Shown piece after piece: positions 4,924-29,530 of a stretch of 38,221 nucleotides of DNA. Positions within the stretch are counted from its first letter, which is position 1. Every line of letters starts with the position of its first letter. This stretch comes from Paludibacteraceae bacterium (lineage in GTDB: Bacteria > Bacteroidota > Bacteroidia > Bacteroidales > Paludibacteraceae): positions 1 through 38,221 of the forward strand of contig JAFSTG010000034.1 in NCBI GenBank assembly GCA_017450605.1, in the 5' to 3' direction. The notes under the pieces are model-generated. The model was not told the DNA's origin, ran no database searches, and saw nothing but the letters and a program-made list of their open reading frames with translations. The translations under genes and the position numbers were made by a program.

Positions 4924-5181
4924 ATGACCGCAATAGAGCAACAGAAAACCGCCCAAGCCATCCTTGATGCCCGCGCCAAATATCCTGATTGCAGCCTTGC
5001 CGACCTATATGACGAAGTAACCATGCCACCTGAACTGCGCCGTGCCCACCAAGACAACGACCGCGCCGTCATGGCAGCCTACGGCTTCTCAACCAAGATG
5101 ACCGAAAGCGAGTACGTAGCGGAACTATTCAAACTATACGAGAGACTTAAATCAGCCAATCGTAATCAGCCAATACAGTAA
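4924..5181 (+). pseudogene. Orphan C-terminal piece of an MmeI-type DNA methyltransferase
   Basis: An 85-residue frame with the segment AILDARAKYPDCSLADLYDE, then TMPPELRRAHQDNDRAVMAAYGF. From memory of the family this is the extreme C-terminal domain of MmeI-like type IIG restriction-modification proteins, which are roughly ten times longer. Nothing upstream in 4883-4923 encodes the rest, so this is either a remnant or a small protein made of this domain alone. The final residues (SANRNQPIQ) and the stop codon are encoded by copies of the AATCAGCCAAT repeat that belongs to RAYT1 downstream, so the repeat has overwritten or extended the 3' end. An ATG at 4924 is present after an A/T-rich leader; expression is uncertain. 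Confidence 0.6.
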
Positions 5182-5203
5182 TCAGCCAATATTGGCTGAT
5201 TAC
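5150..5203. repeat. REP-like cluster upstream of RAYT1 with a 26-bp perfect palindrome
   Basis: Three copies of AATCAGCCAAT lie at 5150-5160, 5164-5174 and 5180-5190. The third is followed directly by its exact reverse complement, giving a perfect palindrome of 26 bp at 5178-5203 with half-site GTAATCAGCCAAT. The cluster ends 14 bases before the RAYT1 start codon and also supplies the stop of the preceding frame. Such hairpins next to a RAYT gene are the usual substrate sites of these enzymes. Confidence 0.85.
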
Positions 5204-5217
5204 ACTCAGTAACTGAA

Positions 5218-6471
5218 ATGAAAAACCAAAGCGCAAATGACAAAATGAAAAACCAAAGCGCAAATGCCCCCTTCGACTGGGCGCAGTATTGGGAAGCGAA
5301 AGGCATGAAACGCACCTATGCTCACCGACCGCGAGCGCAATGGAACAACTACCGCTGGCGTGGCACTTACCTGATTACTATAGTTACCCACAGCCGCAAG
5401 CGAGTGTTAGGAGAGTTAATCAACAACCCACAGAACGCAAGAGTGGTATTGACCAACCCGCAGAACACAAAAGTGGAATTGACCAACCCGCAGAACGCAA
5501 GAGTGGAATTGACCAACCCGCAGAACGCAAGAGTGGAATTGACCAATATTGGTCAATTCGTAGAACAGGAGTGGCTTTCCATCCCTGCTAAGCAAGCGGC
5601 GCACGGCAGGCTGGTCAGCGTGTTAGCTCAGCAGGTCATGCCCGACCATTTCCATGGTGTCTTGCGTGTTGAGAAAAATATGGACGTGGCTTTAGGGTCT
5701 ATCATACGGGACTTCAAGGCACAATGCACCAAGGCGTGGCGCAGAATGAATCAGCCAATATTGGCTGATTACATAGAGAGCGCGGAAACCAAAGCCCGCC
5801 TTGCCCACATGTCGCACAAGCAGCGCGAGGTTTTCTACCAAGAGCAGGGCATAGAGCCTCTTTTTGACAACGACTACGACGATACGGTCTGCTTTCGTGA
5901 CGGACAGACCGACAACGCCATCCGCTATGTGCTTGACAACCCTCGCCGTTTGGCATTAAAACACGCTAATCCGCAGTTGTTCAGGATGCACCAACAAGTG
6001 CAGGTAGCAGGCTTTAGTTGCACGACGCTTGGTAATATGTTTCTGCTTGATTACCCGATGAAAGGCGTTATCCAATGCTCGCGCCGCTTGATACAAGAAG
6101 AGATTGATAGGCAGAAAGAGCAATGCTTTGAAGAAGCCGAGCGCGGAACGGTGTTTGTTACGCCAGCCATATCCGAAGGCGAGAAACAGATTAGCAAAGC
6201 CTTACGCGAAGCCGGCTATCCGCTGATAGTGCTCTTAGAAAACGGCTTTCCGAAGGAAACAGATCCGCATTACAAGTATTTCAAGCCGCAGGGCGTATAT
6301 TTCGAGGCGTGCGCCATAGGACAATTACTGCTTATCGAACCTAATGCGAACATGTTTGACAGTAAGGATATTGAAAGGGTAGTTTTTGAAAAAGCAGGCG
6401 TAATACCTCACGAAACACAACGCTATCGTTTCCTTGCACTCAATGAATTAGCAAAAAGAATACAACAATGA
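5218..6471 (+). CDS. RAYT1: REP-associated Y1 (HUH) transposase-like protein with C-terminal extension
   Basis: 417 residues. The Y1/IS200-like core is shown by the strand YLITIVTHSRKRVLGEL, the HUH motif in MPDHFHGVL (about residues 141-149) and the likely catalytic tyrosine in AIRYVLDNPRRLAL (about residue 237). RAYTs nick single-stranded DNA at REP hairpins and are usually single-copy, domesticated transposases of about 150-250 residues. Here about 170 more residues follow the tyrosine helix (FVTPAISEGEKQISKALREA, then GYPLIVLLENGF), shared with RAYT3 and more weakly with RAYT2. The start region holds a 22-bp direct repeat (5218-5239 and 5245-5266), so translation could begin at either ATG. 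In-frame repeats occur at 5425-5544 and a palindrome at 5749-5770. The stop overlaps the start of the SDR gene. Confidence 0.85.
   Translation: MKNQSANDKMKNQSANAPFDWAQYWEAKGMKRTYAHRPRAQWNNYRWRGTYLITIVTHSRKRVLGELINNPQNARVVLTNPQNTKVELTNPQNARVELTNPQNARVELTNIGQFVEQEWLSIPAKQAAHGRLVSVLAQQVMPDHFHGVLRVEKNMDVALGSIIRDFKAQCTKAWRRMNQPILADYIESAETKARLAHMSHKQREVFYQEQGIEPLFDNDYDDTVCFRDGQTDNAIRYVLDNPRRLALKHANPQLFRMHQQVQVAGFSCTTLGNMFLLDYPMKGVIQCSRRLIQEEIDRQKEQCFEEAERGTVFVTPAISEGEKQISKALREAGYPLIVLLENGFPKETDPHYKYFKPQGVYFEACAIGQLLLIEPNANMFDSKDIERVVFEKAGVIPHETQRYRFLALNELAKRIQQ
5425..5559 (+). repeat. Four 30-bp in-frame tandem repeats plus a 24-bp palindrome inside RAYT1
   Basis: Four head-to-tail 30-bp units (5425, 5455, 5485, 5515) encode the ten-residue repeat NPQNARVELT with few changes; the last two units are identical. 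They run into a perfect 24-bp palindrome at 5536-5559 with half-site GAATTGACCAAT. The equivalent position in RAYT2 reads NDPTQARVELSELG once, so the array is a local expansion of one ancestral segment. Copy number could vary by slippage without breaking the frame. Confidence 0.9.
5749..5770. repeat. Internal copy of the RAYT1 palindrome, in frame
   Basis: A 22-bp perfect palindrome built from AATCAGCCAAT and its reverse complement, identical to the core of the cluster at 5180-5201. It is translated as NQPILADY, between the HUH motif and the catalytic tyrosine. Confidence 0.9.
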
Positions 6472-7208
6472 ACAAAACAATTTTCATAACCGGCGGTGCG
6501 AGTGGCATAGGAGCTGCCACGGTCAGCAAGTTTATAAGCGAAGGTTGGAATGTGCTGTTTACCGATATTCATGATCCGGCAGTTACCGACCAACGTTCCC
6601 GTTTTGTCAGAGCCGACTCGTCGAAGAAAGCCGAACTTGAGCGCGCAGCGTTGATTGCTGAGCAGGAGTTTGGAGGCATTGATGCATTATTCTGCAACTC
6701 AGGCATTCACCGCCGCAACACCGTACTCGACATCACGCAAGAAGAGTTAGACCTTGTTATTCAAACCAATATCTATGGGACGGTATATACACTGCAAGCT
6801 GTACTGCCATATATTATTCGTAGAGGAAGCGGATCAGTGGTACTGAATTCTTCCGACCAATTTTTTGTAGGCAAAGCACATAGTTTTGCCTATGGCATGA
6901 CAAAGGGTGCTATCGGTCAGATTGCACGGAGTCTGGCTATTGACTTAGGACCAAAGAATATCCGCGTCAATGCCATCTGCCCGGGGACCATACATACACC
7001 ATTGGTTGACAACCTGTTTGCTAAATTCTCTGCTAAGGATAACAAAACCATAGAGCAATATTGGAAAGAGGAGAACGCTCTCTTTGCCCGTGGTCAGGCA
7101 GGTAGGCCTGAAGAAGTGGCAGAAATGGTTTATTTCCTTATTTCCGACAAAGCATCATTCTGCACCGGCGGTCATTATTTGATTGATGGCGGATTAGTAT
7201 GCCAATAA
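6468..7208 (+). CDS. SDR-family NAD(P)-dependent oxidoreductase
   Basis: 246 residues, the normal length for a classical short-chain dehydrogenase. It has the Rossmann glycine motif TGGASGIG (residues 7-14), Asp in the cofactor-selecting loop (FTDIHD, favouring NAD(H)), NSG in place of NNAG, Ser at VVLNSSDQ and the catalytic pair YGMTKG. The C-terminal GGHYLIDGGLVCQ is typical of the family. It interconverts an alcohol and a ketone; substrate unknown. Its ATG overlaps the RAYT1 stop by the ATGA arrangement, so it is translated from the RAYT1 message or from a promoter within RAYT1. The zinc-type transporter gene follows 16 bases later. Confidence 0.9.
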   Translation: MNKTIFITGGASGIGAATVSKFISEGWNVLFTDIHDPAVTDQRSRFVRADSSKKAELERAALIAEQEFGGIDALFCNSGIHRRNTVLDITQEELDLVIQTNIYGTVYTLQAVLPYIIRRGSGSVVLNSSDQFFVGKAHSFAYGMTKGAIGQIARSLAIDLGPKNIRVNAICPGTIHTPLVDNLFAKFSAKDNKTIEQYWKEENALFARGQAGRPEEVAEMVYFLISDKASFCTGGHYLIDGGLVCQ

Positions 7209-7224
7209 AAACAACAAATACATT

Positions 7225-8007
7225 ATGACACTTACTATTGCTATAGGACTTCTTATTCCTCTGCTTGGCACAATGCTCGGCTCGGCATTTGTCTTCTTGA
7301 TGAAACACGACATGCCCGACCGCCTGCAGAAAGCCTTGTTAGGATTTGCCTCAGGCGTAATGGTAGCGGCATCGGTATGGTCGCTACTTATCCCTGCTAT
7401 TGAATCGGAGGCAGACAAGGGCGCATGGGCAGTGATGCCCGCTGCTGCCGGTTTCCTGCTCGGTATATTGTTTCTTTTGGCTATCGATGAACTCACGCCG
7501 CACCTGCATGTAGGTGCCAATACACCCGAAGGTCCGCGTAGCCACCTCTCTCGCACGGCAATGTTAGCCCTTGCTGTAACAATCCACAATCTGCCTGAAG
7601 GAATGGCAGTGGGTGTGGTACTCGCTGCGGCGGCACAAGGCACTGCAGGTCTTTCTGCTTCGGCGGCTATAGCCGTCTCACTCGGAATTGCCATACAGAA
7701 CATACCGGAAGGTGCTATCATCTCGATGCCTATGCGGGCAGCAGGTAATAGCCGTTGGACATCATTTCTCATAGGAAGCCTTAGCGGAGTGGTGGAACCG
7801 ATAGGCGGACTGCTCGTGATAGTGCTTGCAGCATGGCTCACACCTGTTTTACCTTATCTGCTTGCTTTTGCAGCAGGAGCGATGATGTATGTGGTGATAG
7901 AAGAACTGATACCCGAAGCCTCACAAGGCAAACACTCTAATCTCTCTACAATAGGTTTTGCTATCGGCTTCGTGCTAATGATGGTACTCGATGTTGTTTT
8001 AGGCTGA
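7225..8007 (+). CDS. ZIP-family divalent metal transporter (ZupT-like)
   Basis: 260 residues, almost entirely hydrophobic with about eight membrane segments. The metal-binding signatures of the ZIP family are clear: HNLPEGMAVG in one helix and QNIPEGAIISMP in the next, with a further E in VVIEELIPEA. Members import Zn2+, Fe2+ or Mn2+ into the cytoplasm; the metal preference is not readable from sequence. It lies in a plus-strand run with the SDR gene and the radical SAM gene (37 bases downstream), so metal supply to the iron-sulfur enzyme is a possible link. Confidence 0.9.
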   Translation: MTLTIAIGLLIPLLGTMLGSAFVFLMKHDMPDRLQKALLGFASGVMVAASVWSLLIPAIESEADKGAWAVMPAAAGFLLGILFLLAIDELTPHLHVGANTPEGPRSHLSRTAMLALAVTIHNLPEGMAVGVVLAAAAQGTAGLSASAAIAVSLGIAIQNIPEGAIISMPMRAAGNSRWTSFLIGSLSGVVEPIGGLLVIVLAAWLTPVLPYLLAFAAGAMMYVVIEELIPEASQGKHSNLSTIGFAIGFVLMMVLDVVLG

Positions 8008-8044
8008 TATGATATATACAAAACAAATAACATAACTAAACTAC

Positions 8045-9142
8045 ATGACAGATATTAACATTCAATCTTATATGAGCAATGCCATCCGCCGTATCATGGC
8101 AAAGGCTTATCGCAATGTGCTGAGTAATCCGCGCGAGGCAAAGACTGTATTTGGCTTGCAGCAGACTTTTATCAAATCAGAGTCGCGGAGGAAAACGGTG
8201 GCTAAGGAGTCTGGGGTGGATGTGCCGCCTTTTCTCATTTGCAGTATATCCACCGAATGTAACCTCTCGTGCAAAGGGTGCTATGCCCGCGCTAACGGCA
8301 TTGCCGACAACCCCGGCAAGAGTACTCGCCCTACACTCACACCCTCGCAGTGGCGCGAGATTTTCGCCGAAGCCTCGTCGCTCGGTATCAATTTCGCATT
8401 GCTTGCCGGCGGTGAACCGATGATGCGAAAAGACATTCTCGAAGAAGTTGCGAAAGTAGAGGACATGATATTCCCTATTTTCACCAACGGTACGCTTATC
8501 GGACCTTCGTACATCGCTTTTCTAAAAGAGCATCTTAATCTCATTCCCGTTATAAGTATAGAGGGTGCAGAACACGGCACTGACGACCGTCGCGGCAAGG
8601 GGATTTACAAACGAGCAATGATGTCGGTAGAGGAGTTACACAAAGAAGACCTTTTCTTTGGAGTTAGTATCACCGTTACGACAGAGAATTTTGCATTAGT
8701 CACATCCGACGACTATGTTGACCATCTGCGCGAACTGGGCTGCAAACTCATTATCTATGTCGAATACGTACCTACCGAACCGGGTACCGAGCATCTCGCC
8801 TTCGGCGACAACGATCTCGAGATGATGGAAGCCGTACAAGCACATCAGCGCGAACGATACGACGATATAATCATCATCTCTTTCCCCGGTGACGAGAAGC
8901 ACATGGGTGGCTGCTTGGCTGCAGGACGCGGCTTCTTCCATATCGGTCCCGACGGAAATGCCGAGCCTTGTCCGTTCTCGCCTTATAGCGACAGCAACGT
9001 GCTCACACTCGGCGTTAAAGGAGCACTGCAGTCGCCGCTGTTCAAAAAACTTCGCGCCGTACACCTCGTAGGCGGCGAACATTCAGGAGGCTGTGCACTA
9101 TGGGAACACCGCGAAGAAGTAGAAGCAATGCTAAATCATTGA
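8045..9142 (+). CDS. Radical SAM protein with cysteine-rich C-terminus
   Basis: 365 residues. The radical SAM cluster motif is CNLSCKGCYAR (CxxxCxxC, near residues 71-78), followed by the GGEPMMRKD glycine motif that binds the SAM amino group. The C-terminal part (GGCLAAGRGFFHIGPDGNAE, then PCPFSP and SGGCALWEHR) has the spacing of a shortened SPASM/twitch domain that would bind an extra Fe-S cluster. The enzyme makes a 5'-deoxyadenosyl radical; the substrate is unknown. The gene is followed by a flavodoxin 35 bases later, which could be the electron donor for the cluster. No precursor peptide gene is visible nearby, so a RiPP role is not supported. Confidence 0.85.
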   Translation: MTDINIQSYMSNAIRRIMAKAYRNVLSNPREAKTVFGLQQTFIKSESRRKTVAKESGVDVPPFLICSISTECNLSCKGCYARANGIADNPGKSTRPTLTPSQWREIFAEASSLGINFALLAGGEPMMRKDILEEVAKVEDMIFPIFTNGTLIGPSYIAFLKEHLNLIPVISIEGAEHGTDDRRGKGIYKRAMMSVEELHKEDLFFGVSITVTTENFALVTSDDYVDHLRELGCKLIIYVEYVPTEPGTEHLAFGDNDLEMMEAVQAHQRERYDDIIIISFPGDEKHMGGCLAAGRGFFHIGPDGNAEPCPFSPYSDSNVLTLGVKGALQSPLFKKLRAVHLVGGEHSGGCALWEHREEVEAMLNH

Positions 9143-9177
9143 AACATTAAATCAATAGAACATTAAACATAAAAAAA

Positions 9178-9588
9178 ATGAAAACAGCAATTCGTTATTT
9201 CAGCAAATTTGGCCATTCAAAGCAAATGGCTCAGGCAATAGCCGAAGTAGTTAATGAACAACCCCAGACCGTTGCCACACCTCTGACAGAACCTACAGAT
9301 GTGTTATTCTTAGGAGCAGGTATCTTCCTTGGTTCAGTTAATAAGAGTGTTATGCAGTTTATCGACACACTCACTGCCGAGAAAATAGGCTGTGTAGTAC
9401 TATTCGGTTCGTCGGCACTTATCAGCGAGCCTACCAAGGGTATGCGTGAGGCACTCGCAAAACGCGGAGTAAAAGTTTATGAGAAAGTGTTCGAGTGTAA
9501 AGGTGCCATGGGACCTCTCAACAGCGGACATCCCGACAAACAAGACCTCGAAGCATTGCGTGAATTCGTAAAAAAAATAGTGAAGTAG
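9178..9588 (+). CDS. Flavodoxin-domain protein, cytoplasmic
   Basis: 136 residues with the flavodoxin fold: N-terminal strand MKTAIRYFSKFGHSKQMAQA, where the SKFGHSKQ loop takes the place of the FMN phosphate loop, then VLFLGAGIFLGSVNKSVMQF. No signal peptide. It lies directly after the radical SAM gene and 4 bases before the next membrane protein, which suggests a shared transcript and an electron-transfer role for the radical SAM enzyme. The phosphate loop is not the textbook TxTGNT, so FMN binding is likely but not proven. Confidence 0.75.
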   Translation: MKTAIRYFSKFGHSKQMAQAIAEVVNEQPQTVATPLTEPTDVLFLGAGIFLGSVNKSVMQFIDTLTAEKIGCVVLFGSSALISEPTKGMREALAKRGVKVYEKVFECKGAMGPLNSGHPDKQDLEALREFVKKIVK

Positions 9589-9592
9589 CAAG

Positions 9593-10051
9593 ATGAATAC
9601 CGACAAAATTCTTCCTGTCAGGCGTGAACACCTTCTGCTCATGCAAGTGCTATGCTGGCTTGCGCCCGGTATCGTCATCACTCGCAAAGGGGTGATGGCT
9701 CTTGTCTGTGTTGCCGCCACAGCCCCCGAGCGACTATGGTGGCTGATACTAATAGCTGTAATGGTAGCGATAACATTTTCGCTAATGTTCAACAATTTTA
9801 TCAAACGATACACGCAGCGTATCCTCACGTTCCCTGAACGCAAGAAATCGCTTTTTGCATTCTTTAATTTGCGTGGCTACATACTTATTTTCTTTATGAT
9901 GGGTTTAGGCATCAGTTTAAAGTATATTCCCGGCATGCCTGTTGAATTCTTTGCCGGCTTTTATCCCGGACTCGGCACCGCTCTAAGCATAGCAGGAATA
10001 CGATATTTCTATTCTTGGTGCAAAGAAATAAGAGCTAATGGTAAATCATAA
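9593..10051 (+). CDS. Small integral membrane protein, unknown function
   Basis: 152 residues with about four hydrophobic segments (around residues 17-40, 48-66, 91-108 and 120-138) and a basic linker NNFIKRYTQRILTFPERKKS between the second and third. I do not recognise a named family. It starts 4 bases after the flavodoxin stop and ends 8 bases before a MarR-type regulator, so it is part of the same cotranscribed group. Confidence 0.65.
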   Translation: MNTDKILPVRREHLLLMQVLCWLAPGIVITRKGVMALVCVAATAPERLWWLILIAVMVAITFSLMFNNFIKRYTQRILTFPERKKSLFAFFNLRGYILIFFMMGLGISLKYIPGMPVEFFAGFYPGLGTALSIAGIRYFYSWCKEIRANGKS

Positions 10052-10059
10052 ATTTCATT

Positions 10060-10518
10060 ATGTACGAACAGTTAAAAATAGACAACCAGTTATGCTTCCG
10101 CCTGTACACTGCTGCAAGGCTTGTTACTCAGGCGTATTGGCCATATTTTGAGCCATTAGGTATCACCTATCCTCAGTATTTGGTGCTTATGGTACTTTGG
10201 GAGAACGATAAGCAACCTGTTAATGACATTGCCAAACGCCTGCTGCTCGAAACCAACACCATCACTCCCCTACTCCAACGTATGGAACGCGAGGGTTTGC
10301 TCAAACGCATTAAAGGGGAGGCAGATACCCGGCAGCGCATTGTTTGCCTGACAACTAAGGGTAAACTGTTAGAAGAGCAAGCCAAAAACATACCCAGTTG
10401 CTTGGGCAGCAAAATATGCGGACATGGAGTTGAAATTCATGAATTATTACAGATAATTCCTACTCTCGATAAACTAATAGAGACACTTGGCATCAACCAT
10501 ACGGTTGAAGATAGATAA
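10060..10518 (+). CDS. MarR-family regulator, OhrR-like
   Basis: 152 residues with a winged helix: YPQYLVLMVLWENDKQPVND, then LLLETNTITPLLQRMEREGL as recognition helix and the wing RIKGEADTRQRIVCLT. The N-terminal NQLCFRLYTAARLV carries a cysteine at the place used by OhrR-type peroxide sensors, whose oxidation releases DNA. OhrR proteins repress organic hydroperoxide resistance genes; no ohr gene is in this window, so the targets may be the redox genes just upstream. The family is firm; the peroxide-sensing role is inference from the single Cys context. Confidence 0.85.
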   Translation: MYEQLKIDNQLCFRLYTAARLVTQAYWPYFEPLGITYPQYLVLMVLWENDKQPVNDIAKRLLLETNTITPLLQRMEREGLLKRIKGEADTRQRIVCLTTKGKLLEEQAKNIPSCLGSKICGHGVEIHELLQIIPTLDKLIETLGINHTVEDR

Positions 10519-10540
10519 AAACCACTAAATAATAGCAGAA

Positions 10541-11221
10541 ATGATTAAAAGAAATATCAACGAGGTATTTCCGCGCACTATGTATGGCACGCCATACACT
10601 ACCTTTAATAACATTACCCCCGACGACACACTTGTGTTCGATTTGGGTGGTGTGCTGGTAAGGCACAACATGCCCGGTTGCATTGCAGCATTCACCAACT
10701 TGATGGGAGTTGAGAACATGCATTTAGTTCTTGGTTTGGCAAGCAACGGCGAAGGAGTTGCCGATTCGCTTATGGACGAATACGAATGTGGCAATGTATC
10801 AACTAAGCAATTCGTTGCACAGATACTTAAATATTGCAAAAGCGGCACTACCGAAGACGATGTAAAAAAAGCATGGATAACAATGCATGGCGGTATGATG
10901 GATGAAGAGTGGCAGATAGTAAAATCGCTACACTCGCAAGGGTTCCGCACTTTTCTTCTATCGAACAACAACGAGTTGCATTGGCAGCATGCACTCTCGC
11001 AAATCGATGGACATATCAACGACTACTTCAACGACGTTTTTCTATCGCACCTGATGCATTGTCGCAAACCCGACAAGAAAATATTCGAGACGGTGAATGC
11101 CGCTATCGGTTCTAAATCACAGAACACGGTATTTATCGACGACATAGAAGAAAACCGCCAAGCAGCCACTAATGCGGTTGGTTGGCGGACTCTGACGAGT
11201 GTCAAACAATTAAGATTTTAA
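10541..11221 (+). CDS. HAD-superfamily hydrolase (subfamily IA)
   Basis: 226 residues. Motif I reads LVFDLGGVLV, with the nucleophile Asp followed by Leu-Gly rather than DxD, as is common in HAD-IA phosphatase-like and YihX-type proteins. Motif II is LLSNNN, motif III is the Lys in HCRKPDKKIFE, and motif IV is VFIDDIEENRQAA. Likely a sugar-phosphate or nucleotide phosphatase; the substrate cannot be read. It lies 22 bases after the MarR gene and is the last gene of the plus-strand run; the next gene is convergent. Confidence 0.85.
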   Translation: MIKRNINEVFPRTMYGTPYTTFNNITPDDTLVFDLGGVLVRHNMPGCIAAFTNLMGVENMHLVLGLASNGEGVADSLMDEYECGNVSTKQFVAQILKYCKSGTTEDDVKKAWITMHGGMMDEEWQIVKSLHSQGFRTFLLSNNNELHWQHALSQIDGHINDYFNDVFLSHLMHCRKPDKKIFETVNAAIGSKSQNTVFIDDIEENRQAATNAVGWRTLTSVKQLRF

Positions 11222-11228
11222 TCATAAT

Positions 11229-11243
11229 CGGTCTAAACGACCG
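11229..11243. terminator. Weak hairpin between convergent genes
   Basis: The sequence CGGTC, TAAAC, GACCG forms a 5-bp stem in the 32-base gap between the HAD gene and the convergent DUF362 gene. It is followed by only three T on the plus strand. Position favours a terminator; strength is low. Confidence 0.3.
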
Positions 11244-11253
11244 TTTGGATTAA

Positions 11254-12633: not shown

Positions 12634-12700
12634 GTTGCGGGGTTTGTTTTTAGAATTTAATATTATATACTCAATAATGTGTTTGTCATCCGATTAAACA

Positions 12701-14575: not shown

Positions 14576-14615
14576 TTAGATATAGTATTCAGCCCATAAA
14601 ATCATTATAACGTCG

Positions 14616-14646
14616 CAAAGGTAGTATTTTTTCCACGATTTACAAT
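14616..14646 (-). promoter_or_regulatory. Bacteroidetes-type promoter for the TonB receptor gene
   Basis: On the minus strand TACCTTTG (14623-14616) matches the TAnnTTTG -7 box, with ATTG (14646-14643) 19 bases upstream in place of TTTG. Expected start is about 34 bases before the receptor ATG. Confidence 0.55.
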
Positions 14647-14661
14647 ACTATATAATACAAA

Positions 14662-19328: not shown

Positions 19329-19433
19329 CCCTCAGAATGATTTGGCAGAACGTAGTTTTTGAAAATCGTATATTCGTTTTGCTTTAATTGCATTTTGCGT
19401 CCAAATAGCCTAATTCAAAAGACAGCATCTATT

Positions 19434-21073: not shown

Positions 21074-21085
21074 CTTTTATCAGAC

Positions 21086-21568: not shown

Positions 21569-21584
21569 GTTAAAATCGGATATT

Positions 21585-22499: not shown

Positions 22500-22522
22500 A
22501 TAGTAATGCCATTGGTAAAAAT

Positions 22523-22550
22523 AAAAAAGTGCAGTCTTCTGCACTTTTTT
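22523..22550 (+). terminator. Strong intrinsic terminator after the WYL gene
   Basis: A 12-bp stem AAAAAAGTGCAG and CTGCACTTTTTT with a TCTT loop, continuing into T-rich sequence. The symmetrical A and T tracts allow it to work in both directions. Confidence 0.92.
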
Positions 22551-22635
22551 TATTATAACCGACTCGTTGTGTCAGTTTGCGACTGTAATTTTGCAGCGTA
22601 ATACAAAATAAGTTTAACCAATCAATATCTGCATT

Positions 22636-22832
22636 ATGGGAATTTTTGATTTTTTATTCGGTCCCTCGACCGACCCTGGGCAGCGTTCTTGGCAAAGAAC
22701 AAGACTATATTTGATAATGCTCTCAACAAAGACTATCAAGATGATTTGATATACATGAGCGAATATTAGAAGTTTTACGAAGGGACAACAGAAGGCGTAA
22801 ATGTACTAAGGGAAAAATCAAAAGGACTATAA
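22636..22832 (+). pseudogene. Decayed small gene beginning MGIFDFLFG
   Basis: An ATG at 22636 opens MGIFDFLFGPSTDPGQRSWQ and then runs into a stop. Shifting frame near 22690 continues the protein as DNALNKDYQDDLIYMSEY, interrupted by TAG, then KFYEGTTEGVNVLREKSKGL and a stop at 22830-22832. The pieces read like one small acidic protein broken by a frameshift or deletion and a nonsense change. Family not recognised. It lies between the WYL terminator and the RAYT2 leader, in a 605-base gap (22500-23104) that otherwise holds a promoter and repeats. Confidence 0.55.
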
Positions 22833-22845
22833 GGCTTCTAAATAA

Positions 22846-22877
22846 TTTGCATAAAAGCACAAGAAAGAGTAACTTTG
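22846..22877 (+). promoter_or_regulatory. Bacteroidetes-type promoter upstream of RAYT2
   Basis: TTTG at 22846-22849, 20 bases, then TAACTTTG at 22870-22877. It would drive a transcript through the repeat leader (22902-23045) into RAYT2 at 23105, a leader of more than 200 bases. Confidence 0.7.
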
Positions 22878-22901
22878 CATGCCAGAAAAATAATTCGATA
22901 C

Positions 22902-23045
22902 AATGGCAACATAAAAAAACAACGGCTACGGCAAAAAAGCAACGGCAACATCAAAAACAACGGCAACATCAAAAAACAACGGCTACGGCAAAAAAGAAAC
23001 GGCAACATAAATGAGCAACGTCAATTAGCCCGAATAGTATTCGGG
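22902..23045 (+). repeat. Repetitive leader and REP-like hairpin upstream of RAYT2
   Basis: From 22902 to about 23009 the sequence is built from imperfect units of AACGGCTACGGCAAAAAAG and AACGGCAACATCAAAA. It is followed by a 30-base element at 23016-23045 that begins CAACGTCAATTAG and ends in the hairpin CCCGAAT, AGT, ATTCGGG (23029-23045). The same element occurs twice inside RAYT2. A short open frame across the stretch would encode NGNIKKQRLRQK repeats, but nothing else supports it as a gene. Confidence 0.75.
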
Positions 23046-23104
23046 GGGAATGAACATTTATAAGTTAACATTAAGAAAGATAAACCCTAAATAATTAAAA
23101 AAAC

Positions 23105-24220
23105 ATGGCAGACGAACAATGGCATTGGCAAGAGCCGGGCACTGCATGGAAAGGCATCGGCATTTACCATGTGACGCTCGTGGTGTCAAGCCGAGAACCA
23201 CTGCTCGGCGAGCTCGTCATCCCTGCTAACGACCCCACACAAGCAAGAGTGGAGCTCAGCGAGTTGGGACTTTATGTAAAAGCCTGCGTGGATGAGATAC
23301 CGAAGCGGCATAAGCAGGTTAGGATAATAAAACTGCGGATGATGCCCGACCATGTTCATGTTATCCTTTATGTCACTCAGGCTATGGATGTGAGCATCAA
23401 GATGGTGGTGCGTGGACTATGGCAAGGAGCAAAGAAAGCGGGAAGGGAATACTCTGCGTCGATTAGCCCGATGTCAAAATGTCCAACGTCAATTAGCCCG
23501 AATAACATTCGGGACAATAAACGTGGCAAAAATGCTGATAATGACACAACGTCAATTAGCCCGAATAGTATTCGGGACAACGAACGTTGCCAAAATGGGG
23601 ATGAAGATGCAGGTAAGAATCAGCCTTACGACCCGATATTCAATGAGATGCCTTTTATTCGTCCCATGTCGCGACGAGGTCAGTTGCAGGCTATGATTCG
23701 CTATGTCGAGATGAATCCTCAGCGATTAGCCACCAAACGCCTTATGCCCGGTCTCTTTCGCGTTCAGCATAACATCGAAATAGCAGGACGGGAATATAGC
23801 GGTGTTGGCAACATAGCATTGCTACAATCGGAGCAATACCGCCCCGTTCATGTGCGCCGAGCGATGGTAGAGGCAGCAGAACACGGCGAGGTACAGCCTC
23901 TGCGTGACTACATGAACAGCTGTGTGATAGCAGCACGGCATGGTACGGTGATGGTATCGCCATTCATCTCGCCAAAAGAGAAAGAGGTGATGGCTGTGCT
24001 GTTAAAAGAGAATCTCCTATTTATCTATCTCGCTGATAATGGTTTTCGAGAATATTATAAGCCGCAGGACAACCTATTCGATGCCGTGGCAGAAGGGCGA
24101 GTGCTCATTCTCAGTCCTTGGGAGCATGATGCAGAAAAGAAACATATCAGCCGTGCCGACTGCGTTGCACTGAACACAATGGCAGAGGAGATTTGCAAGG
24201 GTGAGAGCATGAATGAATAG
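23105..24220 (+). CDS. RAYT2: REP-associated Y1 (HUH) transposase-like protein
   Basis: 371 residues. Core features are IYHVTLVVSSREPLLGELV, the HUH motif in MPDHVHVIL (about residue 81) and the catalytic-tyrosine helix MIRYVEMNPQRLATKR (Tyr about 200). Between them lies an insert of about 55 residues containing two copies of the REP-like hairpin, read as TSISPNNIRDN and TSISPNSIRDN. The C-terminal 170 residues (EIAGREYSGVGNIALLQSEQ, then GTVMVSPFISPKEKEVMAVL) align in pattern with RAYT1 and RAYT3, at lower identity. It follows its own repeat leader and precedes the mcrB promoter. Activity is plausible because the HUH and Tyr motifs are intact. Confidence 0.83.
   Translation: MADEQWHWQEPGTAWKGIGIYHVTLVVSSREPLLGELVIPANDPTQARVELSELGLYVKACVDEIPKRHKQVRIIKLRMMPDHVHVILYVTQAMDVSIKMVVRGLWQGAKKAGREYSASISPMSKCPTSISPNNIRDNKRGKNADNDTTSISPNSIRDNERCQNGDEDAGKNQPYDPIFNEMPFIRPMSRRGQLQAMIRYVEMNPQRLATKRLMPGLFRVQHNIEIAGREYSGVGNIALLQSEQYRPVHVRRAMVEAAEHGEVQPLRDYMNSCVIAARHGTVMVSPFISPKEKEVMAVLLKENLLFIYLADNGFREYYKPQDNLFDAVAEGRVLILSPWEHDAEKKHISRADCVALNTMAEEICKGESMNE
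23484..23576 (+). repeat. Two in-frame copies of the RAYT2 hairpin element inside RAYT2
   Basis: Copies at 23484-23513 and 23547-23576. The second is identical over 30 bases to the upstream copy at 23016-23045; the first differs only in the hairpin loop (AACA for AGTA). A decayed third copy begins near 23458 (GTCGATTAGCCCGATGTC). The upstream copy is in another reading frame relative to its context, showing the repeat is conserved as DNA and not for its peptide. Confidence 0.88.
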
Positions 24221-24256
24221 GGCAGGAAACCTCTAAGTAATTCAACTGTAACTTTA

Positions 24257-24288
24257 TTTGCAATGTTGCAGTAAGAATTGTAACTTTG
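24257..24288 (+). promoter_or_regulatory. Bacteroidetes-type promoter for mcrBC
   Basis: TTTG at 24257-24260, 20 bases, then TAACTTTG at 24281-24288. Start near 24295, leaving a very short leader of about 14 bases to the mcrB ATG at 24309. Confidence 0.75.
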
Positions 24289-24308
24289 TAAAAAATAAGA
24301 AAAACAAT

Positions 24309-26720
24309 ATGGAAACAAAAGAAATTGTAACACAAGAAGAGCTAAATCAAAGAATAAGAACTTTGGCGGATTTATTTCTCAAGTTACATCAAATTAAACC
24401 ATTTAATGGTCACGAAGAGAGATACAAGTGGGATACGGTATATAACTCTAATGCGGATAGCCCTTTAGATACCATCAAAAATTTTGCTCCACCTAAAGCA
24501 AATCTTTTCTATAAGTATTCGTATGCTACACTTGCAGAATTAGTCGAATCTCGCCCTAAAGAACTTTCTGAAGTTATAAACAAACTTTTGGACGAAAGTG
24601 TTCCGTTAGAAAGTCGTCTTGCACAATTCAAAGATGATATGAATGCTTTGAAAATCGAAGGCAAGGCCTCTCCGAACGATGAAAGAACGGCTGCCGTGTT
24701 CCTAACATGTCTTAATCCGCAGAAATACACATTTTACATGCACGACACTTTATACCTACCCTTGTGCAAGTGGTTAGGTGCAGTCAGTGAGAAAGATAGC
24801 GCAAAGGCATACATACATTATCTTAATCTGCTTCAACCATTAGCAGAATTGATAAAAGATGACAAGCAACTAAGTTCTATATTCAGTGAGTTATCTCAGG
24901 GATATGAAACATCGAATTTGCTAAATGCACAAACTCTGCTTTGGTGCGTTCACAAAGAAATTGATCAAATAACAGAAGAAAAGAAAGAGCTCTTAAGATT
25001 CAAACACCTACTCGAATATTTTGCAGCCCATCTCAGCTATGTACAAAGCGGAACTACAGACTTTGACGGTTATGATGAATATATCCGGCCATTAGTTGAA
25101 AAAAACATATTCTACTCATCTGGGCAAGGCTGGAAAAATCATGCTATTCAAAAGCAAGTAAAGAGATGGGATAAATATAAAAATGGCAAGATGTGTGTCA
25201 ATATCAATCCGTCTTTCGGCAGCTATAAGACAAGGAGCACGTACATCAATTGGGAGACGACAGGTTTGAACATTATTGCCGGATGGGAAGATGATAAAGT
25301 AAAAACACTAAAGCTTACTAACTTCTCAGAAGATGAAGGATATAGCAGTTGGACAAAATCCGACTTTATCTATTCTCTTGAAGACTTAGGTTTATATGAT
25401 GGTGAAGAGGACATAAATAATAACCTCACGACTTTTTTCAATGAATTTAATAAACGAAAAAATATGTTAGATATGGAAAGACAAAAAAATGCTGACAAAG
25501 AAAAATATCAGCAATATATCAATCTATTAGAAAAGAATTACAACCTCATCCTTACCGGAGCACCCGGAACGGGAAAGACTTATATGGCACATAAAATTGC
25601 GGAGGCGATGGGTGCAACAGGCGATTGTGTCAAGATGGTGCAGTTTCACCCCTCGTATGATTATACCGACTTCGTGGAAGGTATTCGTCCGCAACAAGAC
25701 GCATCCTTCAAACGTATAGATGGAGTTTTTAAGGAATTTTGTAAACGTGCATTAAAATCACAAAAAATAATTGTTGATAACTTTGAGGAAGGTTGGAGTC
25801 GATTGATTGATTATCTCAGTAATAATGACTTTATTGATGTCCCTTTAATATCTGATTCACACAAAACGATTCGTATTGAATTAAACGAATACGATAACGG
25901 GCTTGCAAATCGCACATATATAGACGGAGAATATAAAAAAGATGAATGGATTAAAGGGAAATCAAAATTCTTCAGTAAAGATCAATTATATAACATATAT
26001 AGAGGATTGAAAGGTGTTCCTCAAGGTGGACATGATAATTATCGTAAGGCAATTATAAATTATATGCTTGAACATTTTGGATTGCAAAAATATCAAGTAG
26101 AAAATTTGTCTAATCAAAAATATGTCTTTATTATCGACGAAATCAACCGCGGAGAGATAAGCAAGATATTTGGTGAGTTGTTTTTCTCAATCGACCCTGG
26201 ATATCGAGGCAAGAAAGGACAAGTTTGCACGCAATATCAGAACCTAATAACCGACGATAATGACGAGTTCAAGCAGGGCTTCTTTGTTCCCAAAAACGTC
26301 TATATTATCGGCACAATGAATGATATCGACCGCTCGGTTGAGAGTATGGATTTCGCTATGCGGCGCAGATTTGCATGGAAAGAAGTGACGGCAGAAGAGA
26401 GTTTTGATAATATAATAAAGGGAAAAAATAATTTTACAGAGGATCAGCAGAATGAAATTGAGATTAGAATGGCACGCTTAAATGCTGAAATAGAAAAACT
26501 ATTAGGTACAGAATATCAAATAGGTGCTGCATATTTCTTAAAACTTAAAGATACTGATTTTTCCGGATTATGGAAGAATCATCTTTTCGGATTACTCTAT
26601 GAATACTTCCGTGGCGAGGATCCCAAAACAAGAAAAGACAAAATGACGACATTAGAAAATGCTTACAATGGAAAGTCAACTGATACAGACAAAGGACAAC
26701 AGCAAGAAAACGCTGGATAG
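24309..26720 (+). CDS. mcrB: McrB-like AAA+ GTPase of a type IV restriction system
   Basis: 803 residues from METKEIVTQEELNQ; an in-frame ATG at 24258 lies inside the promoter and is rejected. Residues 1-380 are a family-specific N-terminal region that would recognise modified DNA. The AAA+ core has Walker A GAPGTGKT (about residue 417), Walker B IIDEINRGEISKIFGEL (about 608) and the McrB signature GTMNDIDRSVESMDFAMRRR (about 669). The distance from Walker A to B is about 190 residues, longer than the about 75 in E. coli McrB, because of an insert containing GWSRLIDYLSNNDF and VPQGGHDNYRKAI. McrB rings bind modified cytosine DNA and translocate with GTP to drive McrC cleavage. The last 62 bases overlap mcrC. 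Confidence 0.92.
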   Translation: METKEIVTQEELNQRIRTLADLFLKLHQIKPFNGHEERYKWDTVYNSNADSPLDTIKNFAPPKANLFYKYSYATLAELVESRPKELSEVINKLLDESVPLESRLAQFKDDMNALKIEGKASPNDERTAAVFLTCLNPQKYTFYMHDTLYLPLCKWLGAVSEKDSAKAYIHYLNLLQPLAELIKDDKQLSSIFSELSQGYETSNLLNAQTLLWCVHKEIDQITEEKKELLRFKHLLEYFAAHLSYVQSGTTDFDGYDEYIRPLVEKNIFYSSGQGWKNHAIQKQVKRWDKYKNGKMCVNINPSFGSYKTRSTYINWETTGLNIIAGWEDDKVKTLKLTNFSEDEGYSSWTKSDFIYSLEDLGLYDGEEDINNNLTTFFNEFNKRKNMLDMERQKNADKEKYQQYINLLEKNYNLILTGAPGTGKTYMAHKIAEAMGATGDCVKMVQFHPSYDYTDFVEGIRPQQDASFKRIDGVFKEFCKRALKSQKIIVDNFEEGWSRLIDYLSNNDFIDVPLISDSHKTIRIELNEYDNGLANRTYIDGEYKKDEWIKGKSKFFSKDQLYNIYRGLKGVPQGGHDNYRKAIINYMLEHFGLQKYQVENLSNQKYVFIIDEINRGEISKIFGELFFSIDPGYRGKKGQVCTQYQNLITDDNDEFKQGFFVPKNVYIIGTMNDIDRSVESMDFAMRRRFAWKEVTAEESFDNIIKGKNNFTEDQQNEIEIRMARLNAEIEKLLGTEYQIGAAYFLKLKDTDFSGLWKNHLFGLLYEYFRGEDPKTRKDKMTTLENAYNGKSTDTDKGQQQENAG

Positions 26721-28002
26721 TGAAGAAGTGCATATATTAAATAAGTTGCGTGAGATTGCTGGTGTGTCTATCAACAATATAAAACTTGAAAACAATCCCA
26801 ATCTTCTTGTGTTTCCTCAATGTCTGAACGAGTGTAAAGATAATATACAAGACAAGCCGATATTCTCTTTAGAAGGCTCTAATTGTATCAAAACCGGCAA
26901 CATTATGGGGTTTGTGGGATATAATGGCACGCATCTGCGTATCTATTCTCGATTTGCACAAGAAGATAGTCAAGACTATTTCATGCACTATATGCTGCAG
27001 AGAGTTTTTGCCATCAACCTATTCAACCTCAAATATACAACCGATACCGACAGCATCTTCAATTTTCTTATCTATCTGTTTCCTGCCTTCCTCAAACGCG
27101 CAACGAGTCAAGGTCTATACCGCGAATATCAGACAAAACATTATAACGATAGCAATATACGAGGGCGAATAGATATAAGCAGACACATTAAGCAGAACAT
27201 ACCTTTTACCGGCAAAATAGCGTATTCTTCGCGCGAATATACTGCTGATAACGCTGTTACGCAACTTATCCGTCACACCATAGACTATATCTCTCATCAT
27301 CCTTATTGTGGCAATATCCTGCAAAACGATGAGGAAACTAAACGCTGTGTCAGTCAGATTCAAGCCGTTACAAACAGCACATATAACAGCCGCGACCGTC
27401 AGCGTGTTATCAATCAGAACTTACGAGCAATAAGACATCCGTATTTTAGCGAATATCGCAATTTGCAGAAACTATGCTTACAGATATTACGACACGAAGA
27501 ACTAAAATACGGAACTAATAACGACGAGATATACGGCATTTTGTTCGACGGAGCATGGTTGTGGGAAGAGTATTTGGCAATAGTGTTGAAAGGTGTGATG
27601 ATACATTACACGAAGCAAGGACCTGAGCCATTGTACTTATTCAAAGGTAAACATCAGCGAATCATTCCCGATTTCCTAAATAAAAGCACACAAATTGTCG
27701 CTGATGCTAAATATATTCCTCTTGACAAAAAGCATATATCAGAAGGCAGCGAGTCAGAAATAGATATATACTATAAGACACTGGTATATATGTATCGCTT
27801 TAACTGCCATGTCGGTTTTCTGCTATATCCTGATTCTAAATCTCAACAAGAAGAGTTGTGTATTGAAGGAAAGACAAATGAGATATTGTACAAAATAGGA
27901 ATGGAAATTCCGCAAAAAGTTAATAATTGGAATGATTTTATAGAAGTAATGGGCAACAGCGAGGAAGAATTTCTAAGCGAGATTAATTCTCACATTCAAT
28001 AG
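26659..28002 (+). CDS. mcrC: McrC-like nuclease subunit of the McrBC system
   Basis: 447 residues from the first ATG at 26659 (a second ATG at 26668 is equally possible). The gene starts inside mcrB in another frame, which couples their translation. The N-terminal half is the McrC beta-rich McrB-binding region (GNIMGFVGYNGTHLRIYSRF). The C-terminal PD-(D/E)xK nuclease has RIIPDFLNKSTQIVADAKY (about residues 334-352), where D, D and K form the active site, preceded by the conserved WLWEEYLA. McrC stimulates McrB GTP hydrolysis and cuts DNA. The motifs are intact, so the system looks functional. Confidence 0.9.
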   Translation: MLTMESQLIQTKDNSKKTLDSEEVHILNKLREIAGVSINNIKLENNPNLLVFPQCLNECKDNIQDKPIFSLEGSNCIKTGNIMGFVGYNGTHLRIYSRFAQEDSQDYFMHYMLQRVFAINLFNLKYTTDTDSIFNFLIYLFPAFLKRATSQGLYREYQTKHYNDSNIRGRIDISRHIKQNIPFTGKIAYSSREYTADNAVTQLIRHTIDYISHHPYCGNILQNDEETKRCVSQIQAVTNSTYNSRDRQRVINQNLRAIRHPYFSEYRNLQKLCLQILRHEELKYGTNNDEIYGILFDGAWLWEEYLAIVLKGVMIHYTKQGPEPLYLFKGKHQRIIPDFLNKSTQIVADAKYIPLDKKHISEGSESEIDIYYKTLVYMYRFNCHVGFLLYPDSKSQQEELCIEGKTNEILYKIGMEIPQKVNNWNDFIEVMGNSEEEFLSEINSHIQ

Positions 28003-28058
28003 CATGCTTAACAACATTACAGCTAATAATATGAATGGAAACAGTAGCAGAATGACTT

Positions 28059-28144
28059 TAGCGCAGGGACTTAACCCTGCGAGCTCAACCAAAACCACGA
28101 ACACAACCCAAACCGCAAGCGAGCTCAACCAAAACCGCGAACAC
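28059..28144 (+). repeat. REP-like hairpin and 40-bp tandem repeat upstream of RAYT3
   Basis: The hairpin CGCAGGG, ACTTAA, CCCTGCG is at 28062-28081 within a 32-base element (28059-28090). After it, GAGCTCAACCAAAACC occurs at 28081 and again at 28121 as part of a 40-bp tandem duplication. The 32-base element recurs inside RAYT3 at 28641-28672 with two changes. The 232-base gap 28003-28234 holds nothing else that I can support; a frame reading TTQTASELNQNREHR is repeat-derived. Confidence 0.8.
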
Positions 28145-28234
28145 CGCTGCTACAAGCGCAAACTCTGCTGCATGACAAACCTTGCGGGCATGGGCAACCA
28201 TAAATTGTAAAATAAAAAAACTATCAGTGAAAAC

Positions 28235-29530
28235 ATGGCTGAGTTGCAACACACAGACAAAGGATGGCGCTACGAACAACAGAAAGTGCATCTGCTTAGA
28301 GCCAAGTGGCACGACTACAAGGCGCCTTCAATCTATATGCTTACGATGACGACCTTAGATAGGAAACCCATGTTAGGAAGGCTCTGTGGTATAGGAGAGG
28401 AGGCTTATATTGAGCTGACTGCCCTCGGCAAGGCAGTAGCAGAGCAGATCGAGATGATGCCGAAATACAAAGGGTTTGAGAGTTCCGAAATATACAGCTT
28501 CGTAGTGATGCCGGACCATATTCATGTGCTTCTGCAAGTGCACGAGACACTCCGGCGCCCGCTTGGATACTATGTCAGTTGGTTCAAGAAGCAATGCAGC
28601 GACAAGGCACAGGAACTTTTAGAAGCACAAGAACCGACCATAGCGCAGGGACTTAACACTGCGAGCACAACCGCCACCGAAGCAACACCTGAAACCGCCA
28701 CCGAAACCGCCGCTGAAGCCGCTACAAACGAGCCCACAGAGGGTTATGCTCTTGCGGCTAAGTCCGCAAGCCCCGTTCCCGCAAGCTCCATTCCCGCAAG
28801 CTCCGTTCCCGCAAGCTCCGTTCCCGCAAGCTCCGTTCCCGCAAGCCCCGTTCCCGTAAGCCCCGTTCCCGCAAGCTCCCACTTAGAAAGCAAGCCCAAG
28901 CCAACCACACCCTTAGTATTTGAAACCGAATACCACGACCGCATACTAACCCACACAGGGCAGCTTACGAACTTAAAGCAGTATATAGCCGAGAACCCGC
29001 GTCGTCTTGCTCTCAGAAGAGCTAATCCCGACCTTTTCCGAATAAGGCAAAACATACGAATAGGCAGTTTTAGTTGTACCACTCTTGGCAATCAGTTTAT
29101 GCTCGATTATCCGGTGCGACAGGTCTTGCAATGCTCTCGTTCGCTGACGCCTGAACAGATAGAAGAAAAGAAACAATCGTGCCTGATAGGGGCGGATAAG
29201 GGCAGTGTCTTCGTTAGTGCCGCTATATCGGAAGGGGAGAAGCAGATATGCAAAGCGCTACGAGAAGCAGGTTATCCGCTCATCATCTTGCTGCAAAATG
29301 GTTTTCCGAAAGAAGATGACCCGCACTACAGATACTTCAAGCCACAAGGCATATTCTTTGAAACCTGCGCAGAAGGCAGGCTATTGCTCATTGAGCCTCC
29401 TTCTGAGATGTTTGAAGATAAGGGCATAGAAGCACTGGTGTATCAGAAAACCGGCATACTCCCTCATGACACCTTGCGGTATCGTTTTCTTGCACTTAAC
29501 AGCTTTGCTCAGATAGTAGCAAATCAGTAG
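28235..29530 (+). CDS. RAYT3: REP-associated Y1 (HUH) transposase-like protein
   Basis: 431 residues. The core has IYMLTMTTLDRKPMLGRLCG, the HUH motif in MPDHIHVLL (about residue 92) and the tyrosine helix NLKQYIAENPRRLALRRANP (Tyr about 249). The insert between them is about 100 residues: first the internal hairpin copy, then Ala/Thr/Glu repeats, then Pro-Ala-Ser repeats. The C-terminal half is very close to RAYT1 (FSCTTLGNQFMLDYPV, FVSAAISEGEKQICKALREA, GYPLIILLQNGFPKEDDPHY), so these two are the nearest relatives. The gene closes the McrBC island. HUH and Tyr are intact. Confidence 0.85.
   Translation: MAELQHTDKGWRYEQQKVHLLRAKWHDYKAPSIYMLTMTTLDRKPMLGRLCGIGEEAYIELTALGKAVAEQIEMMPKYKGFESSEIYSFVVMPDHIHVLLQVHETLRRPLGYYVSWFKKQCSDKAQELLEAQEPTIAQGLNTASTTATEATPETATETAAEAATNEPTEGYALAAKSASPVPASSIPASSVPASSVPASSVPASPVPVSPVPASSHLESKPKPTTPLVFETEYHDRILTHTGQLTNLKQYIAENPRRLALRRANPDLFRIRQNIRIGSFSCTTLGNQFMLDYPVRQVLQCSRSLTPEQIEEKKQSCLIGADKGSVFVSAAISEGEKQICKALREAGYPLIILLQNGFPKEDDPHYRYFKPQGIFFETCAEGRLLLIEPPSEMFEDKGIEALVYQKTGILPHDTLRYRFLALNSFAQIVANQ
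28641..28880 (+). repeat. Internal hairpin copy and seven 15-bp tandem repeats in RAYT3
   Basis: The element at 28641-28672 repeats the upstream hairpin (one stem base changed). A second hairpin, CTTGCGG, CTAAGT, CCGCAAG, is at 28751-28770. Seven 15-bp units of the form GCAAGCTCCGTTCCC follow at 28766-28870, encoding ASSVP or ASPVP. Each repeat unit starts with GCAAG, the end of the second hairpin, so the array probably grew from it. Confidence 0.88.

Follow-up and report, generated by a model that had tools for sequence, protein, structure and literature searches.

In canonical REPtrons, a rayt gene is accompanied by its own family of repetitive extragenic palindromic (REP) hairpins (Nunvar et al. 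2010, PMC2817692; Corneloup et al. 2021, PMC8266576). Nunvar et al. (PMC2817692) describe REPs that flank the gene as inverted repeats and report 37-427 perfect copies per genome in Stenotrophomonas. REPs in other genes and the Rickettsia palindromic elements lie within open reading frames, and they are thought to be tolerated in flexible parts of the proteins (PMC3733652). A different arrangement has been described for TnpA_REP subclass 2.4 (Quentin et al. 2018, PMC6006769), which is group 4 of Bertels in Table 1 of that paper. In this subclass the gene is flanked by REPs of the canonical (GT[AG]G) or the double-foot type and contains further in-frame REPs, which as a rule lie between HuH and Y and are inserted between beta3 and alphaC. 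The tabulated features of the subclass are NH[IFV]H, WQ, YIxNNP, a median length of 194 aa and no protein-tail domain. Here we describe three divergent genes of HUH/single-tyrosine proteins, RAYT1, RAYT2 and RAYT3, all on the + strand of contig JAFSTG010000034.1 from a Paludibacteraceae bacterium (assembly GCA_017450605.1). The whole stretch that was analysed, 38,221 nt of the forward strand, is called the window. In each of the three genes, its own upstream hairpin is found again as an in-frame part of the coding sequence, after HUH and before the catalytic tyrosine. The genes and their hairpins are as follows.

5178-5203, + strand: RAYT1 upstream hairpin GTAATCAGCCAATATTGGCTGATTAC, with two half-sites 5' of it at 5150-5160 and 5164-5174
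5218-6471, + strand: RAYT1 gene, 417 aa; HUH (MPDHFH) at 5638-5655, catalytic Tyr codon at 5926-5928
5536-5559, + strand: second RAYT1 inner palindrome GAATTGACCAATATTGGTCAATTC, before HUH, in the conserved ELTxxGQF sequence
5749-5770, + strand: RAYT1 inner hairpin, past the post-HUH block; codes for NQPILAD
23016-23045, + strand: RAYT2 upstream REP with hairpin CCCGAATAGTATTCGGG
23105-24220, + strand: RAYT2 gene, 371 aa; HUH at 23342-23359, Tyr codon at 23702-23704
23463-23471, + strand: RAYT2 inner half-site TTAGCCCGA
23484-23513, + strand: RAYT2 inner REP, first copy
23547-23576, + strand: RAYT2 inner REP, second copy, enclosed by an outer stem CAACGT/ACGTTG
28059-28090, + strand: RAYT3 upstream REP with hairpin CGCAGGGACTTAACCCTGCG
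28235-29530, + strand: RAYT3 gene, 431 aa; HUH at 28508-28525, Tyr codon at 28982-28984
28641-28672, + strand: RAYT3 inner REP copy, its stem broken by one change
28764-28879, + strand: RAYT3 15-bp tandem repeats (SSVPA units), which lengthen the loop 3' of the REP copy

An upstream REP hairpin is present for all three genes. In RAYT1, AATCAGCCAATATTGGCTGATTACA at 5180-5204 (38 to 14 bases 5' of the ATG) is identical to 5749-5773 in the coding sequence (25/25 bases). The sequence CAACGTCAATTAGCCCGAATAGTATTCGGG upstream of RAYT2 at 23016-23045 is found again at 23547-23576 (30/30), and the upstream and inner REPs of RAYT3, at 28059-28090 and 28641-28672, agree at 30/32 bases. All inner copies are between MPDHxH and the tyrosine motif Y[VI]xxNP. 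An earlier note on this DNA, made from the sequence alone, had claimed such a repeat in each coding sequence, with 22 of 22 bases in RAYT1. The repeats are there, slightly longer in RAYT1, and its statement that the hairpins differ between genes and match within each gene was confirmed and extends to homologues, in which the flank likewise matches its own gene. When eight segments were folded as single-stranded DNA, 0, 0, 0, 7, 1, 0, 1 and 5 of 200 shuffles folded equally well. The support was strong for RAYT1 and weakest for the upstream copy of RAYT2 (7/200) and the inner copy of RAYT3 (5/200).

The palindrome GAATTGACCAATATTGGTCAATTC of RAYT1, which is absent from the earlier note, is a perfect 24-bp palindrome, and its centre CCAATATTGG is common to the upstream and inner hairpins of this gene. 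At least 9 bp were paired at this place before HUH in 7 of the aligned genes. The palindrome sits in conserved sequence, which spoke against the idea that all inner hairpins of the RAYT1 clade are new insertions, and it shows little covariation of its own; it is mostly invariant and therefore less informative. RAYT1 also contains four 30-bp tandem repeats (NPQNARVELT-like units) before HUH at 5424-5543, and each unit ends in a half-site of the palindrome at 5536-5559. The start region of RAYT1 is duplicated at 5216-5266 (24/24 bases, 27 apart), giving two in-frame start codons. The loop of RAYT2 also holds 63-bp tandem units, and 5' of RAYT2, at 22900-23011, there are two copies of a 55-base unit that are 93% identical and rich in CAACGGCAACA.

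To see how common this arrangement is, we used 100 homologue loci from the bacterial family together with the three window genes (103 in total; homologues are given as L numbers). The family search had matches in at least 120/250 genomes, and the 100 loci were picked by hand from the matches listed, roughly by match score to RAYT3, with some partial matches omitted. L058 and L108 were left out of the hairpin counts as their motifs were not recognisable, leaving 101 analysable genes (98 homologues and the three window genes), and close orthologues in the sample are not independent. The first ATG was taken as the start codon, so copies near the N-terminus in L067, L078, L106, L110, L116, L120 and L122 may precede the true coding sequence. 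When the 600 bases upstream were compared with the gene's own coding sequence, the best ungapped match scored at least 18 in 23/103 genes versus 1/309 cross-pairings; for the downstream flank, it was 21/101 versus 1/303. A copy of the own flank anywhere in the coding sequence was found in 39/101 genes (flanking hairpins with no match in the coding sequence were not counted as REPs). In an arm-sharing test, 22/77 genes had a partner in their own flank versus 156/7700 cross pairs, many of the pairs shown being within a clade.

A hairpin of at least 9 paired bases was present in the loop in 30/101 genes, compared with 1.1 after synonymous shuffling, and a strict test found a loop copy of the own flank (600 bp) in 27/101. 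Either sign occurred in 50/101 genes. Without the window genes the same counts were 29/98, 24/98 and 47/98. Perfect-arm loop hairpins of at least 7 bp were present in 76/101 genes versus 11.4 after synonymous shuffling, and those of at least 8 bp in 60/101 versus 3.4. In a stretch of equal length behind the tyrosine, the corresponding counts were 16 versus 10.75 and 3 versus 3.0. The pattern is thus not due to chance and is not confined to the window. The earlier note had asked whether the loop of homologues holds a palindrome matching the flanking repeat; most of them do have a loop palindrome by the perfect-arm counts, but a match to the own flank is limited to the 27 genes above. That every homologue has the pattern was rejected, with 51/101 genes lacking the strict signs. 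Nor is the hairpin excess restricted to the loop, because there is an excess in the N-terminal and C-terminal parts and, for perfect-arm hairpins of at least 10 bp, behind the tyrosine (2 versus 0.15). Genes with loop signs had modestly longer loops than those without (medians of 90 and 79 aa, p 0.007). Parsimony on the HUH tree gave raw counts of 22 changes for a loop sign and 18 for a loop copy of the own flank. Beyond the bacterial family, relatives are rare: at E 1e-20 they were found in 12/295 genomes of the order, a count that takes in the own genome and another of its genus, and in 4/395 of the phylum, again counting the own genome. Among loci from other families of the order, 4/18 (L190, L193, L200 and L208) had a 9-bp loop hairpin.

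The copies have a common place in the protein. The 50 genes gave 61 loop records (hairpin or flank copy; one site may count twice), all of which start at least 27 residues after HUH, 40 of them at 27-40. A conserved block follows HUH, gap-free in 101/103 proteins, and it ends about 30 residues past HUH; therefore the copies start at or behind its end, and none of the 61 records lies between HUH and the block. The same protein position proposed in the earlier note for the three window genes thus holds in this form. Going by the order along the chain, the block probably corresponds to alphaC of Quentin et al., and the copy-bearing loop is presumably the alphaC-beta4 loop.

The best flank/coding-sequence matches were direct in 40/44 cases. 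Of the four inverted matches, those of L047, L092 and L131 are near-perfect palindromes, and L123 alone is clearly asymmetric. Among the remaining matches, too, orientation means little wherever the hairpin is a near-perfect palindrome, as in RAYT1. Downstream copies mostly begin within 100 bases of the stop codon (18/21). In L125, L126 and L135 the hairpin spans the assigned start codon (-7 to +13), and in L073 and L078 one hairpin is just 5' of the start and several are inside. Perfect copies of 66 bases in L040 and of 37 bases in L134 and L068 suggest recent copying or conversion. L073 has four inner hairpins (aa 23, 123, 195 and 245), the first of which may precede the true start. The inner hairpins of L073 and L078 have a common centre, TGCATTAATGCA, while the outer stem varies.

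By sequence, the window proteins are related to the curated RAYT/TnpA_REP families (class 2 TnpA_Y1) but divergent, because their scores miss the family cut-offs: the three scored 21.2, 19.5 and 19.4 bits with Pfam Y1_Tnp (cut-off 23) and 39.7, 19.5 and 38.9 bits with NCBIfam REP_Tyr_transpos (cut-off 80). The HUH and Y---NP motifs are well kept in the family, with both His in 102/103, Tyr and Asn in 102/103 and Pro in 97/103. Together with the profile matches, these motifs agree with the RAYT identity given in the earlier note, in the sense of RAYT-like HUH-Y1 proteins. The family profile aligns with the IS200/IS605 TnpA of ISDra2 (PDB 2xm3) over the HUH strand and the following stretch, although weakly (E 0.0023). 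Unlike IS200/IS605, the family has YxxxN instead of YxxxQ, and near-identical copies of the window genes were not found in the own genome, where a search with RAYT3 returned just RAYT1, RAYT2 and RAYT3 (the assembly is 84% complete, in 120 contigs). The C-terminal part of about 190 residues is conserved across the family; it matched no Pfam family and had no significant relative in the PDB in a profile search (best E 0.41). The nearest named relative, the one relative from a scan of genome contigs, was on contig CAMHKW010000043.1 of an uncultured Bacteroidales bacterium. A scan of IMG/VR gave 37 candidate stretches with no relative among them, PHROGs gave a single weak transposase match (RAYT2, E 0.014), and PADLOC had no match for RAYT1 and RAYT3.

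Like subclass 2.4, the window family has REPs in frame between HuH and Y, so the basic phenomenon was already in print with Quentin et al. 2018 (PMC6006769), and the novelty that the earlier note suggested for the intragenic form holds only in part. However, the family differs from subclass 2.4 in motifs, length, C-terminal domain and insertion loop, and for these reasons we rejected membership of that subclass and did not file the family under it. It has DHxH in 96/103 proteins instead of NH[IFV]H; the position aligned to the W of WQ is F in 70 and W in 23 of 103; N is at Y+3 in 3/103, unlike YIxNNP; the median length is 372 aa with a conserved C-terminal domain, compared with 194 aa and no tail; and all of the 61 loop records are at or behind the end of the post-HUH block, the presumed alphaC, unlike an insertion between beta3 and alphaC. 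Three loci from other genomes do resemble subclass 2.4 (L184, L185 and L198). They encode 200-239 aa and have hairpins inside, before the post-HUH block, as well as outside; L185 and L198 have MPNHxH and WQ, and L184 has MPDHLH and WK. Judged from these sequence features, the window family looks like a second, separate case of in-frame REPs in a tnpA_REP-type gene. In-frame REPs are thus known from subclass 2.4, and what appears to be separate here is their different place in the protein. No description of the form seen in the window family was found among the papers listed by searches of the open-licence literature.

Compared with canonical REPtrons (PMC2817692 and PMC8266576), the window family likewise has its own hairpin family co-evolving with the enzyme, but the best matches between its flanks and coding sequences are for the most part direct, few copies are present in the own genome, and the window genes, by reading, are without the GTAG/GTGG head. 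The upstream hairpins of RAYT2 and RAYT3 are both preceded by TTAG (23025-23028 and 28058-28061), one base off the canonical GTAG. L123 is similar, as is L092, where the G belongs to the stem. The hairpin foot, read for the three window genes only, is TTAG in RAYT2 and TTAG/ATAG in RAYT3, and the stem of RAYT1 starts with GTAA. The family shares palindromic repeats inside open reading frames with the Rickettsia palindromic elements and with REPs in other genes, but those are found in various host genes (PMC3733652), whereas the window family has them in the gene of the very transposase to which the repeat belongs.

In the RAYT1 clade, the inner hairpins appear to be constrained as DNA. The loop hairpin is read in the same frame in eleven genes (nine distinct sequences), and 90/90 pair cells were standard, with four pairs changed on both sides in 14 cells; these hairpins were chosen with a pattern in which the outer bases and CCA/TGG are fixed and the varying pairs are free. 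When the partners were slid by 1-3 positions as a control, there was at most one double-changed cell. The peptides differ while the stem is kept (NQPILAD, YQPYMAD, YPPSLAD and HRPCMVD, with residues Q/P/R). Between groups the peptides are unrelated (NQPILAD, HRALMHD, LAGVTAR, AQGLNTA and others), and by reading, RAYT2 and L134 use different reading frames for their related GAAT..ATTC hairpins. Since changes alter the peptide but hold the stem, and since peptides are unrelated and frames differ, it seems to be the hairpin that is preserved and not the peptide, and conservation of the peptide was rejected. We do not claim that all three frames are in use, given that the stem starts of unrelated hairpins are not comparable. 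L064, the twelfth member of the clade, has no hairpin there and was left out of the pairing count. The hairpin-bearing members align with it gap-free at that place, and for this reason we rejected the idea that all inner hairpins of the RAYT1 clade are new insertions. The earlier note had suggested that the enzyme inserts or tolerates its own target; "inserted" may be the wrong word for this clade.

The hairpin type also follows a part of the enzyme. RAYT1 and L131, L126, L135 and L125 form one clade in the HUH tree (support 99), with 57-59% identity to RAYT1 in the HUH half and 32-34% in the C-terminal half. The reverse is true for L039 and L050, which are 73 and 65% identical to RAYT1 in the C-terminal half and 38 and 35% in the HUH half. 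RAYT1 and this L131 group have related hairpins both within their genes and outside them: ATCAGCCA..TGGCTGAT in RAYT1 and L131 (upstream or downstream) and ATCCGCCA..TGGCGGAT in L125, L126 and L135 (at the start codon). The relatives L049 and L050 have another inner hairpin, TTGCCCGCA..TGCGGGCAA, and no copy of it was seen in their flanks. The hairpin type thus goes with the catalytic (HUH) half across domain swaps, in few independent cases. The linkage of hairpin and enzyme proposed in the earlier note is supported in this sense. Moreover, in 121 genomes of the genus there are 281 occurrences of ATCAGCCANNNNTGGCTGAT on one strand and none of its reversed control. It is present in 18/22 genomes with a RAYT1-type HUH half, defined as above 100 bits with the limit set after the list had been viewed, versus 29/99 other genomes (Fisher p 1.2e-5).

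Some copies of these hairpins were found on other contigs. The contig of L180 and L181 (G000:C56) contains five RAYT1-type hairpins and the only other RAYT2-type hairpin found in the own genome, and it also carries a phage integrase and a phage tail repeat protein; it is a prophage-like stretch carrying REPs. At L178:1160-11395 (G000:C31), a 3411-aa protein with a Laminin_G_3 domain includes two RAYT1-type hairpins, and by a reading of the coordinates both are in frame for YQPYMAD, as in the RAYT1 clade. In the window itself, between RAYT2 and RAYT3 at 24258-28002, there is an 820-aa protein with a GAPGTGKT motif that was matched by restriction-enzyme models, while its 447-aa partner had no match to models. 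We take the two to resemble a McrBC-type pair, and therefore RAYT2 and RAYT3 bracket a possible defence module.

Our preferred explanation, which we hold to be somewhat better than an even bet, is a REPtron whose hairpin stays as a DNA substrate in a tolerant loop. The enzyme would be a single-stranded DNA transposase of the RAYT/TnpA_REP kind with one catalytic tyrosine, and its private REP hairpin would be the presumed single-stranded substrate. The hairpin stands 5' of the start and/or just 3' of the stop codon, mostly direct, and again in frame in the variable loop. As this loop probably tolerates extra residues, copies landing there in an open frame would survive. The enzyme would bind and nick the hairpin and most likely act in cis on its own locus, copying or re-copying it; the literature on a cis preference of IS200 transposases contributed nothing to this point. 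The coding copy would still be readable as a hairpin, since it would be preserved or overwritten at the DNA level and not for the sake of the peptide, and the catalytic half and the hairpin would therefore travel and diverge together. What the sequences themselves show is the hairpins, their position and recurrence, the double changes that preserve pairing and the association with the HUH half. A bolder version, which we regard as possible but doubtful, is that the inner hairpin is a reservoir copy. With its target in its own coding sequence, the catalytic half could not be parted from the site by recombination, and both would be swapped together onto different C-terminal domains. New REP specificities would arise as paired changes in the gene and be exported to the flanks, and such a self-contained module of enzyme and site would have evolved on two or more occasions, using two different loops of one fold.

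Several observations weigh against the preferred explanation. The inner hairpin of RAYT3 is damaged by one change in the stem, 51/101 genes have neither a 9-bp loop hairpin nor a loop flank copy, L064 is without the loop hairpin, and the inner and flanking hairpins of L065 have diverged. The excess of hairpins of at least 9 bp is found outside the loop too (15 versus 1.8 before it and 7 versus 1.65 behind it, with 31 versus 1.1 in the loop). The pattern is much weaker in the other families of the order, where a loop copy of the flank was found in 1/18 loci (L200, score 18) in a test that covered the direct orientation only. The 29/99 genomes without a RAYT1-type HUH half that still hold ATCAGCCANNNNTGGCTGAT are also unfavourable, though many of these are incomplete. 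The RAYT2 hairpin has one further copy in the own genome and the RAYT3 hairpin one further with 3 mismatches, and therefore wide mobility of these two is not evident. No biochemistry on the window family was found in the literature.

The rivals were ranked with passive copying ahead of control at the RNA level and a self-specifying loop behind both. Passive copying, in which slippage, recombination or template switching spreads segments and a disordered loop under weak constraint retains them with the enzyme uninvolved, would fit the ordinary tandem repeats in the loops of RAYT2 (63-bp) and RAYT3 (15-bp) and elsewhere in RAYT1 (30-bp), the half-sites beside full palindromes in RAYT1 and RAYT2, and the predominance of direct matches. 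We consider it rather unlikely, however, since loop hairpins are enriched far above synonymous shuffles, pairing is kept through double changes, the hairpin type goes with the HUH half, and one HUH clade co-occurs with its hairpin across genomes. Less probable still is that hairpins in the sense-strand RNA (in the leader, at the start codon or in the reading frame) stop the protein or the ribosome and give autoregulation. The mostly sense orientation of the copies, the hairpin across the assigned start codon in L125, L126 and L135 and that just 5' of the start in L073 and L078 would all be expected from it, but the upstream copy is 89-176 bases 5' of the start in RAYT2, L115, L130 and RAYT3, other genes have their flanking copy 3' of the stop codon, and RAYT1-type hairpins occur elsewhere in the genome, two of them inside the unrelated 3411-aa protein.

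If the hairpin-coded peptide were part of the hairpin-binding surface, the loop would specify its own target. The presumed alphaC-beta4 location is in keeping with this, being near the REP-recognition region in other subclasses (Quentin et al., PMC6006769), and so is the constant frame within the RAYT1 clade. Yet peptides are unrelated between groups, RAYT2 and L134 use different frames, and residues change (Q/P/R) in the RAYT1 clade with pairing kept, which makes this explanation very improbable. The fragmented (120 contigs) and incomplete (84%) genome is the one point in favour of chance or an assembly artefact, which we regard as next to impossible: the arrangement recurs in many genomes with different sequences and the controls are near zero. 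Chance was rejected as own-flank matches and loop hairpins are far above the controls.

The window family bears on the question of how RAYT and REP stay matched while both change. With the site inside the enzyme gene in many unrelated versions, the family offers ready-made matched pairs and natural domain swaps. The findings also suggest that the arrangement known since 2018 from one subclass is found again in a second one, at a different loop, and this recurrence would speak for a general process and against an accident.

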